Below, in pieces: positions 12,165-17,693 of a stretch of 64,000 nucleotides of DNA (position 1 is the first letter of the stretch; the number at the start of each line of letters is the position of its first letter). The position numbers were made by a program, and so were the translations under genes. This DNA is from Flavobacteriales bacterium (lineage in GTDB: Bacteria; Bacteroidota; Bacteroidia; CAIKAF01). Under the pieces are notes generated by a model. It did no database searches, was not told where the DNA came from, and saw only the letters and a list, made by a program, of their open reading frames with translations. The stretch spans positions 412,016-476,015 of the forward strand of contig JAGYKD010000001.1 in the NCBI GenBank assembly GCA_018401695.1, written 5' to 3'.

Positions 12165-13202
12165 ATGTCATTGCCCAACATACGCAGCCTGTCGCAGCAA
12201 GAAATGATTGATTTTTTTGCCGAGCTGGGCGAACCGGCCTACCGGGCCAGGCAAACGCATCAGTGGCTGTGGCAAAAGCATGTGCGGCGTTTCGAAGATA
12301 TGACCAATTTGGGGAAAGATCTGCGTTCGACGCTTCAGGCGCATTTTTCGCTGGAGCATTTGGAGCCGGCCACCGTGCAACAATCCAAGGACGGAACCGT
12401 AAAATCGGCCATGCGGCTTCCGGACGGCAAAATTGTGGAATCGGTGCTGATTCCTGCCGGAAAACGCATGACCGCCTGCGTGTCGAGTCAGGTGGGTTGC
12501 AGCCTCGACTGCGCTTTCTGCGCTACGGCTGCCCTCAAACGCATGCGCAATTTGGAACCCGACGAGATTTACGATCAGGTAGTGACCCTAAATCGACAAG
12601 CGGAGGAGTTTTTCAACCAAAAGTTGAGCAATATTGTATTCATGGGTATGGGTGAGCCGCTGCTCAATTATACCAAGGTGATGGAATCCATTGCGAAAAT
12701 CACCAGTCCCGAAGGTTTGGGCATGTCGCCCAAGCGCATTACGCTGAGCACCAGTGGCGTGGCGAAAATGATGCATCGTATGGCAGAAGAGCAGGTGCCC
12801 TTTCATTTGGCGCTGTCGCTGCATGCGGCCAACGACGACAAACGGACCCAATTGATGAGCATCAACGCCACCAATCCCTTGTCGATGCTTGCCGAGGCCC
12901 TAAGGCATTGGCATCAAGCTACCGGCCGCCGCGTCACCTACGAATTCATTGTGTTTAAGGACTTTAACGACAGTCCCCAAGACGCCCGAGAGTTGGTAGA
13001 ATTTAGCCGCATTGTTCCCTGCAAAATCAACCTCATCGAATACAATCCCATCGAAGGTGGGAGCTTTGAACAAACCACCCCGGAGCGCTTTGAGCGCTTT
13101 GTTGGCATTTTGGAAGCGGCGGGATGCATTGTAAACGTGCGCCGGTCCAGGGGCAAGGATATTGATGCGGCCTGTGGGCAACTAGCCAACAAAACCCATT
13201 AA
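12165..13202 (+). CDS. rlmN: 23S rRNA (A2503-C2)/tRNA (A37-C2) methyltransferase RlmN
   Basis: Radical-SAM enzyme that methylates C2 of A2503 in 23S rRNA and A37 of some tRNAs. 345 residues. The 4Fe-4S motif C-x3-C-x2-C is seen as GCSLDCAFC (Cys112, 116 and 119). VFMGMGEPLLNY is the SAM-binding GEP segment, ITLSTSGV and LALSLHAAND are conserved, and the C-terminal DIDAACGQLA carries the methyl-accepting Cys. ATG 12165 was preferred over an upstream TTG because of its position after the promoter element. Its stop overlaps the stop of the convergent gene at 13199 in the four bases TTAA. Confidence 0.95.
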   Translation: MSLPNIRSLSQQEMIDFFAELGEPAYRARQTHQWLWQKHVRRFEDMTNLGKDLRSTLQAHFSLEHLEPATVQQSKDGTVKSAMRLPDGKIVESVLIPAGKRMTACVSSQVGCSLDCAFCATAALKRMRNLEPDEIYDQVVTLNRQAEEFFNQKLSNIVFMGMGEPLLNYTKVMESIAKITSPEGLGMSPKRITLSTSGVAKMMHRMAEEQVPFHLALSLHAANDDKRTQLMSINATNPLSMLAEALRHWHQATGRRVTYEFIVFKDFNDSPQDARELVEFSRIVPCKINLIEYNPIEGGSFEQTTPERFERFVGILEAAGCIVNVRRSRGKDIDAACGQLANKTH

Positions 13203-13882
13203 GGTGGGGGATAATGGTAAAAAACCCCCTTGTCGAAAGGTGTCCACCACGCGGCTTTTTGACCTGCCGCTTTAAGGGCATTGTTGGTCCAGGTATTGCA
13301 GGTGTGGAACAAATGGTAACGTCCCTTGGCCTCATAAAACACATCGCGCGGGCCGTAGCTGCTTCCGGTAGAAATAGGAATGGGTTGTCCCGATTCATTG
13401 AAATCGAACCAGCCTAAAACCCATTGATTCAATTTTTTATATAGTTCCGGCGACATATAAATGGCCCTTTTACGCTCCGAAGGCAAAACCTGGGAATAAA
13501 ACACCACATGCATGGCGGTTTCATGGAAACCAAAGGTGGAACCTACAGCCGTAGATAAGGTTAAGTCGCTCCATTCCGGAGTTTCGATGTAGAATTTTTT
13601 GTCGCCCCATCCAATAGAGCACCATTGGGCATTGGAAGCATCTCGGGCATGTTTGGGATGTATGGTTTGGGTCCAGTCCACGTAGTCATTTTTTAGCGGC
13701 ACTACCAAATCGGTATGCACCCCGTTGGTTTTGAGGTATATCATTACTGAATCGGAGGCCAATAAGGAAGAGGCTTCGCCAGAAACAGGAATGATTGAGC
13801 CAAGGACTGCCGCCAGCAGGTAAAGAAGCACCAATGCAGGAAAAATGGCCAACATGCGGAGGATTCGACCCAGCCGTTTCAT
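13199..13882 (-). CDS. TIGR02117 (DUF2459) family membrane-anchored protein
   Basis: 227 residues from ATG 13882; the frame continues upstream only through the REP array. An N-terminal membrane anchor (LRMLAIFPALVLLYLLAAVL) is followed by a domain with YLKTNGVHTDLVVPL, WCSIGWGDKKFYIETPEW, AMHVVFYSQV and HLFHTCNTWTNNALKAAGQ. The conserved His and Cys suggest a hydrolase-like fold of the NlpC/P60 or peptidase type, but no activity has been established from sequence. TACCTTTG lies four bases upstream of the ATG (13887-13894, minus strand). Confidence 0.82.
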   Translation of the reverse strand: MKRLGRILRMLAIFPALVLLYLLAAVLGSIIPVSGEASSLLASDSVMIYLKTNGVHTDLVVPLKNDYVDWTQTIHPKHARDASNAQWCSIGWGDKKFYIETPEWSDLTLSTAVGSTFGFHETAMHVVFYSQVLPSERKRAIYMSPELYKKLNQWVLGWFDFNESGQPIPISTGSSYGPRDVFYEAKGRYHLFHTCNTWTNNALKAAGQKAAWWTPFDKGVFYHYPPP

Positions 13883-13886
13883 AGTA

Positions 13887-13894
13887 CAAAGGTA
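13887..13894 (-). promoter_or_regulatory. TACCTTTG promoter element, minus strand
   Basis: Four bases (TACT) separate it from the ATG at 13882. A REP array begins 14 bp further upstream. Confidence 0.65.
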
Positions 13895-13907
13895 GCGTGC
13901 ACGATCG

Positions 13908-14096
13908 TAGAGACGCAATATTTTTCGTCGTGGATTGATGACCAATATTTTGCGTCGTGGATTGATGCCCAATATTTTGCGTTTTGGATTGATGCCCAAT
14001 ATTTTGCGTTGATGGTAGAGACGCAATATTTTGCGTCGTGGATTGATGACCAATATTTTGCGTTGATGGTAGAGACGCAATATTTTGCGTCTCTAC
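13908..14096. repeat. REP palindrome array (core GCAATATTTTGC)
   Basis: Repeated units with outer arms GTAGAGAC and GTCTCTAC and an AT-rich core; spacers such as GTGGATTGATGACCAATA or CGTTGATG alternate between head and tail forms. The last complete palindrome ends at 14096 and contains the stop codon of the adjacent RAYT gene. Confidence 0.8.
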
Positions 14097-14785
14097 GGGG
14101 TCCAACGGGCAGTATTGGTTTTAATGTATTGGGTTATTCGTTCATAGGATCCGTCATCACCGATAATGTGGTCATGAAATCGGGGTTGCCAGGCAAATGC
14201 AGGATGGATTTGGCGTGCGTTTTTGGTTACCCCAATTTTGAAACCGCGAATTATGGATGCCAAATTTTGGGATTGAGGGGCGAATTGGTTTTTTCGTTTA
14301 CCCATTTCCGACGGTTGGGATGGTTGGGATGGTTGCGGTGAATCCGGTGATTTTGGTGGTTGCGGCGCCCCCAACACCCCCGGTAATATCGATGGTAGAG
14401 ACGCAATATTTTGCGTCGTGGATGGATGACCAATATTTTGCGTTGATGGCAGAGACGCAATATTTTGCGTCTCTACATTCCGCCCATCAGGCCACCCATC
14501 GCGGCCATCGTTCTGTTTTTTGATAATCAAAATGCCATGCACATGATTGGGCATAATGACATGCGCGCCCAATTCAACAAACGGAAAATGATGCGGGATT
14601 TCATGCCAACAGGAATTGGCGATATGTCCCATTGCCGATAAATCCATTAGGCCATCCACAACATCCCCAAACCAACATTGCCTGTTTTTGGTGCAGATGG
14701 TTACAAAATACGCGGCATTCCAACTGTAATCCCAAAAAGGGGCACGGGCCGATGCTATGCGGTATTTGTTTTTGAATTTTTCCAT
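14093..14785 (-). CDS. REP-associated tyrosine transposase (RAYT, Y1/IS200-like)
   Basis: 230 residues from ATG 14785 (MEKFKNKYRIASARAPFWDY, the usual RAYT beginning); an ATG at 14812 would add nine residues. The HUH motif is MPNHVHGIL, preceded by YFVTICTKNR. The C-terminal RITQYIKTN segment contains the likely catalytic Tyr. RAYTs are single-copy housekeeping-like relatives of IS200 transposases that act on REP palindromes. Between the HUH motif and the C-terminal domain the frame carries an insertion of REP-derived sequence (about 14394-14475; residues QNIASLPSTQNIGHPSTTQ) plus a Pro/Ser/Gln-rich linker. The stop codon TAG lies within the terminal REP arm. The protein appears intact otherwise. 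Confidence 0.88.
   Translation of the reverse strand: MEKFKNKYRIASARAPFWDYSWNAAYFVTICTKNRQCWFGDVVDGLMDLSAMGHIANSCWHEIPHHFPFVELGAHVIMPNHVHGILIIKKQNDGRDGWPDGRNVETQNIASLPSTQNIGHPSTTQNIASLPSILPGVLGAPQPPKSPDSPQPSQPSQPSEMGKRKNQFAPQSQNLASIIRGFKIGVTKNARQIHPAFAWQPRFHDHIIGDDGSYERITQYIKTNTARWTP
14394..14475. repeat. REP units inside the RAYT reading frame
   Basis: Same sequence as the 13908-14096 array (GGTAGAGACGCAATATTTTG, then GATGACCAATATTTTGCG, then a second palindrome). It is carried in frame within the transposase gene. Confidence 0.8.
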
Positions 14786-14866
14786 AGGGATGATTGGAAT
14801 ATTTTGGATCATTTAAACGCATGCATCACCATCCTATTGTTTGGTTGAAGCAACATGTTGCATTGA

Positions 14867-14951
14867 TGGTAGAAACGCAACACATTGCGTCGCTGTCCGG
14901 ATTTGACCAACCACCGCAACATCCAAGCGTCGGGGCCTTCGGGACCGACGC
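14867..14951. repeat. Degenerate REP unit and GC-rich hairpin
   Basis: GGTAGAAACGCAACACATTG with a following GCGTCGCTG is a decayed REP unit. GCGTCGG (14927-14933) and CCGACGC (14945-14951) form a 7-bp stem. The rest of the 14813-15117 gap holds no recognisable gene or site. Confidence 0.45.
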
Positions 14952-15117
14952 AAAGGCACGGGTACGGAGCTTGTTTTTCCTATGGAAGGAAGGCCCAAAA
15001 ACCCTAAAAAAACGCTTTGGCCTCCAAAATCTTGGTATTGAAGCGGGTCTTAACCCCGGCTTTGCAGCTTCTCCCTTCGATGCCCAACCATTTCCTTGCC
15101 CAACCGTTTCTTTGTAC

Positions 15118-16116
15118 ATGGCCTTGCTGGAACTTAGGGACAAAGGACTTTATTGCGCTGCGGGAGACTTTTACATCGACCCTTGGAGGCCGGTGAACCG
15201 AGCGGTGATTACTCATGCGCATGCCGATCATGCCCGTTACGGATCGAGGCAATACCTGGCTCACCGAGCTTCGGCTTCGGTGCTCAGGCTTAGACTGGGC
15301 AAGGACATTGCTTTGCAAACGCTGGATTATAACCAATCGGTCTATATGCAAGGGGTGCGGATCAGCTTACATCCTGCGGGACATATTCCCGGCTCGGCGC
15401 AAGTTCGGGTAGAACATAATGGCGAAATTTGGGTGGCTTCGGGCGATTATAAAGTCCGCGACGATGGCCTCAGCCCGGCCTTTGAACCGGTGCGCTGCCA
15501 TCACTTCATTACCGAAAGTACCTTTGGCTTGCCTTTGTTTCGATTTCCTCCGCAAGAACAGGTGTTTCAAGATATCCATCAATGGTGGGGACAAAACAGG
15601 AGCGAGGGTTTTTCCACGGTACTTTTTGCCTACAGCCTGGGTAAGGCCCAGCGCTTAATTAAGCATCTAAACCCTGCCACCGGGCCAATATTTGTGCACT
15701 CTGCCATTCGCCAAACCAACAGTGCGCTGCAAGCCGATGGCTGGGACATTCCGGAGCTTCCCTTGCCTTCCGAAGGAAAAAAAGAAGCGTTAAAAGGAGC
15801 TCTGGTTATTGCACCACCCGCAGCGGCAAGAGGCACTTGGCTTAAGGCCTTTGGCCCGGCTCGGCTGGCGACGGCTTCGGGCTGGATGGCGCTGCGAGGT
15901 GCCCGCCGCCGGCAGGCTCTAGACCGCGGCTTCTTGCTCTCCGACCATGCCGATTGGGATGAGCTGCATCAGGCCATTGAAGCCAGCGAGGCAGCACATA
16001 TTTGGGTGACCCACGGATACCGCGCATTGTTTGTGCGGCACCTGCAAGATTTGGGCTATGAAGCCTCGGTATTGGAAACGCCTTTTGCCGGTGAGGAGGC
16101 CGAAGCGGAGGCATGA
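15118..16116 (+). CDS. Ligase-associated DNA exonuclease (metallo-beta-lactamase fold)
   Basis: 332 residues. ATG 15118 (MALLELRDKGLYCAAGDFYI) matches the usual start of this family; in-frame sequence upstream is not homologous. The metal-binding motif is VITHAHADHARYGS, with further conserved LHPAGHIPGSAQV, VASGDYKV and, near the end, FLLSDHADWDEL and HIWVTHGY. The family (beta-CASP/MBL nucleases linked to ATP-dependent ligase) processes DNA ends for repair. Its stop overlaps the ligase start by four bases, so the two are made together. The helicase and phosphoesterase that often follow in this cluster are not present here. Confidence 0.88.
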   Translation: MALLELRDKGLYCAAGDFYIDPWRPVNRAVITHAHADHARYGSRQYLAHRASASVLRLRLGKDIALQTLDYNQSVYMQGVRISLHPAGHIPGSAQVRVEHNGEIWVASGDYKVRDDGLSPAFEPVRCHHFITESTFGLPLFRFPPQEQVFQDIHQWWGQNRSEGFSTVLFAYSLGKAQRLIKHLNPATGPIFVHSAIRQTNSALQADGWDIPELPLPSEGKKEALKGALVIAPPAAARGTWLKAFGPARLATASGWMALRGARRRQALDRGFLLSDHADWDELHQAIEASEAAHIWVTHGYRALFVRHLQDLGYEASVLETPFAGEEAEAEA

Positions 16117-17693
16117 AACGCTTTGCAGCCCTATACGAGCAATTGGATCAAACCCAACGCAGCAAAGAAAAAATTCAAGCTTTGGTCGATTTTTTCAGAG
16201 AGAGCCCACCCGAAGACGCCCTTTGGTTGGTGGCTTTGCTCATGGGCAAACGGCGTCGGCGACCGGTGAAATCGTCGCTTTTGAGGCAATGGGCGGCAGA
16301 GGAGGCGCAATTGCCGCCCTGGTTGTTCGAGGCTTCTTATCAGGTGGCCGGAGATTTGGCCGAAACCATGGCCTTGGTTTTACCGCCGGCAAAGGGACAT
16401 AAAGATCAGGGCTTGGCGCAATGGATGAAGGACTTGGCTGAGCTACAAACCATGCCAGAGGAGCAAAAAGAAGCCTGGATTAAAGCGACGTGGAGACAAC
16501 TGGAAGCTATGGAGCGCTTTGCCTTCAACAAATTATTGACGGGAGGTTTTAGGGTGGGCGTTTCGGCCAAATCGGCCATCAAAGCCATTGCATTGCATTT
16601 GAACAAGCCTGAGGATGAAATAAGTTTGCGCTTGGCCGGCAATTGGACTCCGGAGGCCCATAGCTGGGGGTTGTTGTTGGAGTCTGACCCCGACCAAAGC
16701 CTTAAGGGACGGCCCTACCCTTTTTGCCTGGCCTATGGGTTGGAAGAAAGCCCGGAGGCCTTGGGCCCTGCCCAAGATTGGCAGGTAGAATGGAAATGGG
16801 ACGGCATTCGGGGTCAAATCATTGTACGAGACCGAGAGGTGTATGTTTGGAGCAGGGGTGAAGAACTGGTGACCCATCAATTTCCTGAATTTGCCATATG
16901 GAAGGACAAATTGCCGGAGGGAACGGTGTTGGACGGCGAAATTGTAGCCTGGGAAGCGGGAGAAGTGGGGCCCTTTCATAAATTGCAGCACCGATTGGGA
17001 CGTAAAAAGCCAAGTCAAAAGCTATTGAAGGAATATCCGGTGCGTTTTATAGCCTACGATGTGTTGGAATGGGAAGGCAAAGACCTCCGGGCAGAAGCTT
17101 TGGCGGAACGGAGAAAGTTGTTAGAAGCTTTGGTGCAGGAGGGCCCTCCGGGTCTGCTTGCTTCGGAGGTTTTAAGGATTAGCGACTGGAGTGAGGCCAA
17201 GGCATGGAGAGCCGGGGCAAGAGATTGCAAGGCAGAGGGTTTGATGCTTAAATCCAAGCAAAGTCCGTATCGCGTGGGGCGCAAAAAAGGCGATTGGTGG
17301 AAATGGAAATTGGATCCGCGCAGCATAGATGCAGTGTTAATTTACGCGCAGCGCGGCCATGGACGGAGGGCGAATTTGTATACGGACTTCACCTTTGCGG
17401 TTTGGCGGGGAGAAGAATTGGTGCCCTTTGCGAAGGCATACAGCGGCCTCACCGATGAGGAAATGAAACAAGTAGATGCCTTTGTAAAGAAACAAAGTTT
17501 GGAATCGTTTGGACCGGTGCGCAAGGTTGAGCCTTTGTTGGTGTTCGAAATTGGTTTTGAGGGCATACAGCCCAGCAGCCGACACAAATCGGGAGTTTCG
17601 GTGCGGTTTCCCCGCATGTTGCGCTGGCGGCAAGACAAAAAAGCGGAGGATGCGAATTGCCTGGAAGATTTGATGGCATTTTTGGACAAATAG
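16113..17693 (+). CDS. ATP-dependent DNA ligase
   Basis: 526 residues. An N-terminal all-helical DNA-binding domain (about residues 1-195) precedes the adenylation domain with the nucleophile in VEWKWDGIRG (Lys228, motif I). Motif III is VLDGEIVAW, motif IV RFIAYDVLE, then AEGLMLKSKQSPY and DWWKWKLDP (motif V). An OB-fold follows, ending FEIGFEGIQPSSRHKSG. It seals nicks using ATP, unlike the NAD-dependent replicative LigA. It is coupled to the exonuclease gene by a 4-bp overlap, a pairing known from bacterial DNA-repair ligase clusters. Confidence 0.93.
   Translation: MKRFAALYEQLDQTQRSKEKIQALVDFFRESPPEDALWLVALLMGKRRRRPVKSSLLRQWAAEEAQLPPWLFEASYQVAGDLAETMALVLPPAKGHKDQGLAQWMKDLAELQTMPEEQKEAWIKATWRQLEAMERFAFNKLLTGGFRVGVSAKSAIKAIALHLNKPEDEISLRLAGNWTPEAHSWGLLLESDPDQSLKGRPYPFCLAYGLEESPEALGPAQDWQVEWKWDGIRGQIIVRDREVYVWSRGEELVTHQFPEFAIWKDKLPEGTVLDGEIVAWEAGEVGPFHKLQHRLGRKKPSQKLLKEYPVRFIAYDVLEWEGKDLRAEALAERRKLLEALVQEGPPGLLASEVLRISDWSEAKAWRAGARDCKAEGLMLKSKQSPYRVGRKKGDWWKWKLDPRSIDAVLIYAQRGHGRRANLYTDFTFAVWRGEELVPFAKAYSGLTDEEMKQVDAFVKKQSLESFGPVRKVEPLLVFEIGFEGIQPSSRHKSGVSVRFPRMLRWRQDKKAEDANCLEDLMAFLDK

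Follow-up and report, generated by a model that had tools for sequence, protein, structure and literature searches.

The locus described here raises the question of why a transposase gene should carry, in its own reading frame, hairpins of the kind that its product would recognize. The gene encodes a RAYT (REP-associated tyrosine transposase) and lies in a 64,000-nucleotide stretch of a Flavobacteriales genome, the whole of which is termed the window. GTAG-tagged palindromes flank the gene, and the same palindromes recur elsewhere in the genome. In-gene REPs were rejected as a novelty, as they have already been described: subclass 2.4, which was defined from Bacteroidetes, Cyanobacteria and further phyla and is equated with Bertels's group 4 in Table 1 of that study, has REPs predominantly inside genes, in frame and between the HUH motif and the catalytic tyrosine (Quentin et al., 2018; PMC6006769). 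The first-pass annotation of the window had taken the arrangement to be unusual, and it is in fact the rule in this subclass. The window gene is a further member of this known RAYT group. What can be added to the published account is evidence on why the hairpin is present, consisting of its prevalence, its preservation, its match to a recognition helix and cases where it is the single copy in a genome. The best explanation of the whole, which we regard as an even call, is that of an intact RAYT of the subclass 2.4 type whose cognate REP hairpin, carried in frame, would serve as a self-target that limits the transposase.

The reading frame is intact, as had been stated at first pass, with both the HUH codons and the catalytic tyrosine codon present (Table 1). 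An alternative in-frame ATG is found at 14812, and the frame 14093-14812 (minus strand) is open for 239 codons; the ATG at 14785, with which the first-pass annotation also began the gene, is the likelier start because homologues begin at MEKFKNKYR. The NF047646 profile matches the protein in two stretches with 46.9 bits, or 52.7 bits with the linker removed, which misses the curated cut-off of 80 bits; this cut-off is a naming threshold and no biological feature. Paralogues score 55-66 bits, and the model appears to be tuned to other subclasses. The subclass 2.4 motifs NH[IFV]H and WQ are present (MPNHVHG, AWQ). The YIxNNP consensus of the subclass differs in the window protein, where Tyr, Ile and one Asn are retained; its Pro position is T or V in other homologues too. 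A second difference from subclass 2.4 is seen at the C-terminus, where a REP stands in for the end of the protein and provides the stop. The gene is found in one copy in its genome, together with three further RAYT-like genes that are 33-62% identical over the matched stretches. Its neighbours (13202-13888, minus strand; 14794-17693, plus strand) comprise a DUF2459 protein, a weak metallo-beta-lactamase match that is possibly a ligase-associated exonuclease, and an ATP-dependent DNA ligase.

Table 1. Positions of the RAYT gene, its motifs and the associated REP sequences in the window
Feature	Position	Strand	Basis or remark
RAYT coding sequence	14093..14785	-	Open reading frame, NF047646 profile, structure match
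HUH motif, H90-V-H92	14537..14545	-	Invariant in alignments A1 and A3
Catalytic tyrosine Y229, in YIKTNT (subclass consensus YIxNNP)	14126..14128	-	Invariant column in alignments
Variable linker from HUH strand to helix alpha-C, residues 100-178	14279..14515	-	pLDDT 41-64; length varies in homologues
Residues 179-194 (PQSQNLASIIRGFKIG), start of helix alpha-C, covarying with hairpin	14231..14278	-	Column scans
In-frame REP block GTAG...CTAC, 82 nt, residues 113-140	14395..14476		Two hairpins around a degenerate 27-nt unit
3' flanking REP array, 27/54-nt period	13903..14097		Last GTAG foot gives the TAG stop
Degenerate REP upstream of RAYT start	14869..14895		Family D2, 82% identical

The REP block had been reported as about 80 bp of in-frame sequence at 14394-14475. 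The reading in frame holds, and the span needs the small correction given in Table 1. The REP-encoded peptide is likewise real but somewhat longer than first quoted, consisting of VETQNIASLPSTQNIGHPSTTQNIASLP plus neighbouring residues, and its location between the HUH motif and the C-terminal part agrees with the coordinates. The GTAG...CTAC orientation is that of the plus strand, and the coding strand folds into two strong hairpins that flank the degenerate unit (RNA z = -6.5). The stop codon (TAG, 14095-14093) does lie in an arm of the flanking array, where it forms part of the GTAGAGAC foot, and a single-stranded DNA hairpin is predicted at this point (z = -6.65). Chance is excluded for the REPs of the window, since seven matches are found as compared with none in 100 shuffles and the hairpin z is -6.5; a search of 13500-15200 gave no Rfam match. 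The block (14391-14476) and the array (14011-14096) are identical at 84 of 86 positions (98%), and this difference of two positions points to recent copying between them. As the period of the array corresponds to whole codons, length changes in such arrays preserve the frame. Ribosome stalling by a REP near a stop codon is attributed to Liang (2015) in PMC6006769, and an effect on translation at the stop of the window RAYT is a lead only. A 26-nt-period array of the window REP also starts at the end of another open reading frame of the same genome (L061:380-560; C13:201.4 kb), whose TAG stop appears to be a GTAG foot as well.

An AlphaFold2 model, for which the window protein was aligned with fetched loci (34 rows), places most of residues 23-99 and 179-239 above a pLDDT of 90, has a helix at 184-199 and predicts the linker to be disordered. 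As the two core halves are confident, the REP-encoded stretch in the linker leaves the fold undisturbed. The closest structural neighbour is 4er8, E. coli TnpAREP with its REP hairpin (Z 13.1, rmsd 2.5 over 123 residues, 24% identity), followed by the IS608 and ISDra2 transposases, and the window protein thus has an HUH and single catalytic Tyr fold related to that of TnpAREP. The two RAYTs share fold, HUH/Tyr chemistry and, putatively, GTAG hairpin targets (PMC8266576), and the DNA-binding helix alpha-3 of the E. coli enzyme corresponds to alpha-C; the E. coli protein differs in having about 11 residues from HUH to helix and no in-gene REP. Transposases of the IS200/IS605 type (IS608, ISDra2) are alike in the HUH Y1 fold and, by analogy, in single-stranded hairpin recognition. 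They are multicopy, with left and right ends around tnpA, whereas the window RAYT displays no IS ends and has REPs that both flank and interrupt the gene. Palindromic repeats read in frame are also known as REPs/RPEs in unrelated genes (PMC3733652); those repeats are scattered, whereas here the site is fixed within the gene of the cognate enzyme.

The prevalence of the linker hairpin was determined with a profile limited to the N-terminal half, which kept the linker from biasing the sample. This search covered 247 Bacteroidota genomes; about 110 loci were fetched, and 93 genes with both halves were counted, with an arm score of 9 or more as the hairpin threshold. It replaces an earlier homologue set that was biased by a query containing the linker peptide and that included MAG-derived loci whose phylum assignment may be wrong. 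A linker hairpin is found in 70 of the 93 genes (75%), as compared with 1% in dinucleotide shuffles, 3% in the N-half and 1% in the C-half. Relaxed detection gives a count of 76/93, and coding sequence of matched length gives 1/93. No in-gene hairpin is detected in roughly one-fifth to one-quarter of RAYTs, and it is therefore not essential. In homologues without the REP (for example L182, L229, L244) the linker is short and different, so it is not the same sequence. Genes that end in a hairpin, as in the window, form a recurrent minority of about half a dozen of the 93. In same-family RAYTs that lack the linker REP (L040-L043, L049), an in-frame palindrome resembling a REP (AETHNRASLHA, VETEYIPSL) lies in a different loop, ahead of the LSxxG motif.

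The alternative that survives best is that the REP is a tolerated mobile insertion: REPs would land in or near RAYT genes by cis action, and only in-frame copies in the loop would survive, without a function. We consider this unlikely, though it is the rival to be taken most seriously. It is essentially the published reading, in which little effect of in-gene REPs on activity was suggested (Quentin et al., 2018; PMC6006769). It is consistent with a linker that lies outside the core as a disordered loop and that, in homologues such as L100 and L225, contains tandem repeats that are not palindromic, with the nearly exact copying of the window block from or to the flank array, and with an enrichment of REPs in flanks too, the hairpin rate being 39% and 41% in the 300-bp flanks and 8% in a 700-bp stretch further away. 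Against it, hairpin density in the linker is about four times that of the more tolerant flanks.

Retention without other copies also argues against mere tolerance. In Flavobacterium RAYTs of the IGKNTIS type, the hairpin is retained in 8/8 distinct genes, and by pattern searches, on which all genome copy numbers given here rest, its 16-nt core (up to two mismatches) has one occurrence, in the RAYT linker, in 8/8 genomes. The Flavobacterium probe, which served for searching only, joined a consensus-like N-half to the L157 linker. As the genomes hold no second copy, re-insertion or homogenisation is not the cause of retention. In a star-tree simulation of neutral decay, 8/8 retention has a probability of about 1e-8 when 0.2 substitutions per site are assumed, and of 1e-3 with 0.1. 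This check, unlike the sister comparisons below, is not conditional on a detected hairpin. In the genome of the window, the second RAYT (L034) has the exact hairpin core only inside its own gene and the third (L035) only in and just beside its own gene; the window REP has 13 exact core copies. Other hairpin types also have dispersed copies. L035 (C12:591200-594200), whose in-gene and downstream hairpin is GTTGCATGCAAC, lies between open reading frames similar to those of a type I restriction-modification system, hsdR-like upstream and hsdM-like downstream. The fourth RAYT-like gene (L036:1206-2069, and L053) is common to another species of the genus and has in-frame GC-rich repeats (ERPDERPDESRP) in the C-terminal tail and not in the linker.

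Sister comparisons likewise weigh against a functionless insertion. The 59 disjoint pairs, whose median core distance is 0.30, agree at 234/260 fourfold-degenerate positions of the hairpin (90%) and at 862/1861 of the core (46%; Wilcoxon p = 3e-11), effect sizes that are upper estimates since only genes with a detected hairpin entered. Identity is higher in the hairpin than in the core in 56 of these pairs and lower in two. Paired positions, under the same restriction to genes with a detected hairpin, show 162 compensatory changes, 84 one-sided breaks and 32 that are otherwise broken. Where in-gene REPs have been described as insertions with little effect (PMC6006769), they behave here as conserved cognate targets would, and the in-gene hairpin is best read as a selected self-target rather than as a tolerated insertion.

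It is also conceivable, if rather improbable, that the in-gene hairpin is a transposition end, which together with a flanking REP would bound a single-stranded mobile unit as do the left and right ends of IS200/IS605 elements. The 82-bp block starts with GTAG, ends with CTAC and occurs twice at the locus, and GTAG feet are usually intact (left 122/167, right 112/167). However, a flanking hairpin within 300 bp is absent for 30 of the 70 RAYTs that have an in-gene hairpin, the feet decay between sisters while the stems stay, and a unit terminating inside the gene would take only half of the gene with it. Flank hairpins do not make up for a missing in-gene hairpin in this sample, whether a hairpin in any flank (Fisher p = 0.63) or in both flanks (p = 0.55) is counted.

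A role of the encoded peptide (VETQNIASL and the like) at the protein level is very improbable. Similar peptides do recur among many homologues, but the hairpin reads vary widely (VETQNFASL, VETLHATSL, VGAIHELPL, RDAMHCVST, RGTACRAPT), and the GTAG foot is read as GTA in 49 cases, as xGT in nine and as TAG in none. One hairpin DNA is thus read in two frames to give unrelated peptides (VET..ASL, RDA..VST), and the peptide cannot be what is kept. Furthermore, the segment is predicted to be disordered, its fourfold sites are conserved, and compensatory changes alter residues in both arms, as in the Flavobacterium gene L258 (VEAGHALPL), where an A.T pair has become G.C through changes in the two arms. 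Judged by how the sequences vary, the conserved object in the linker is the hairpin and not the peptide.

The hairpin also appears to be matched to its own enzyme. In-gene hairpins have a median similarity of 0.82 to their own flank hairpins (45% at 0.9 or better) and of 0.45 to the flanks of other RAYTs (1.5% at 0.9 or better), and hairpin distance follows the distances of the two protein halves (Mantel r 0.40 and 0.45, 0/999 permutations). In column scans with overall divergence regressed out, the loop-proximal half-stem is best tracked by columns from the beginning of helix alpha-C, namely G190, Q180, N183, R189, G194, Q182 and I193 (best r 0.346; largest permutation maximum 0.121). When the stem is scanned in parts, positions 8-10 track R189, Q180 and N183, the centre tracks G190, G194, I193, I72 and H75, and the lower stem tracks R18, I19 and R211. 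Residues 189, 190, 193 and 194 are on the same side of helix alpha-C. The REP stem is contacted in E. coli TnpAREP by K82, a residue of helix alpha-3 (PMC8266576); from the motifs REIKKQFT and RGFKIGVT, we infer that K82 corresponds to I193.

Control for ancestry consisted of the regression and of close pairs. In pairs that are near-identical outside the alpha-C segment, hairpin distance correlates with segment distance (Spearman 0.77; 0.34 and 0.46 for the rest of the protein). A natural swap is seen between L035 (listed as L003) and L095, which are 91-93% identical elsewhere: the hairpins are GTTGCATGCAAC and AGGGCATGCCCT, and the alpha-C segments, which differ in residues 179-190, read PKSNTISSIIR and QGKNSVSSIIG, respectively. 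The covariation may in part represent shared ancestry or a cassette-like inheritance of the linker with the adjacent helix. A bias of mutation alone, whereby template switching at quasi-palindromes mends imperfect arms without selection, would produce frequent compensatory changes but is hardly credible, as symmetry repair should not reduce the substitution rate at fourfold sites, which change far less than in the core, and would not link the hairpin sequence to alpha-C residues.

By comparison of sequences, then, the hairpin in relatives is shown to be the rule, to be constrained as nucleic acid, to track residues of the DNA-reading helix and to persist where the genome has no other copy. The idea behind the first-pass annotation, that of an enzyme encountering its target within the gene that encodes it, gains from the helix covariation, the fourfold preservation and the sole-copy cases, which are consistent with a self-target. 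The annotation's choice of the mRNA as the level of action does not: no excess of G.U in the mRNA sense was found among non-Watson-Crick pairs (32 G.T, 36 A.C), and DNA and RNA are thus indistinguishable as the level at which the hairpin acts; double-foot hairpins also present GTAG on both strands. In the self-target reading, the disordered loop would accommodate any open-frame sequence and hence the REP hairpin. The enzyme would bind the hairpin in its own gene, when single-stranded in replication or transcription, and/or in its own mRNA, and the bound hairpin would limit production or activity of the transposase. Autoregulation via gene or mRNA is the likeliest role that we infer. A compatible addition is that the in-gene hairpin could be a resident master copy that renews dispersed and flanking REPs. 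That the hairpin is integral to the gene and under selection, as both feedback site and permanent master copy outlasting dispersed copies, is plausible but somewhat short of probable. In the window the system is expanded, with the block copied between the gene and a 3' flank that now provides the stop codon. Here the REP copy is possibly kept by homogenisation, since 13 exact core copies exist and near-identity to the flank is a sign of copying; homogenisation with flank and dispersed copies is visible in this gene and is inseparable from selection.

In-gene hairpins bear on the host role of RAYTs and on their choice of REPs. If the hairpin is a conserved self-target, each RAYT gene would name its own substrate, and hundreds of enzyme-target pairs could be read from sequence. 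The recognition code would be testable, the loop-proximal stem being paired with alpha-C residues 189/190/193/194 and the lower stem with residues 18/19 and 211, and the coding sequence of the transposase would have a second role as a site of regulation by the encoded enzyme. The Flavobacterium single-copy cases represent a clean genetic system, with one enzyme and one target in its own gene.

Two further REP occurrences were observed. An extreme expansion is found in L267 (Flavobacterium, G289), where the RAYT linker has about twelve tandem in-frame hairpins (ETRLIASNN repeats) and the hairpin has 23 near-matches in its genome. In the genome of the window, one REP copy (L059; C1:646622) adjoins a sequence like a tmRNA 3' end.
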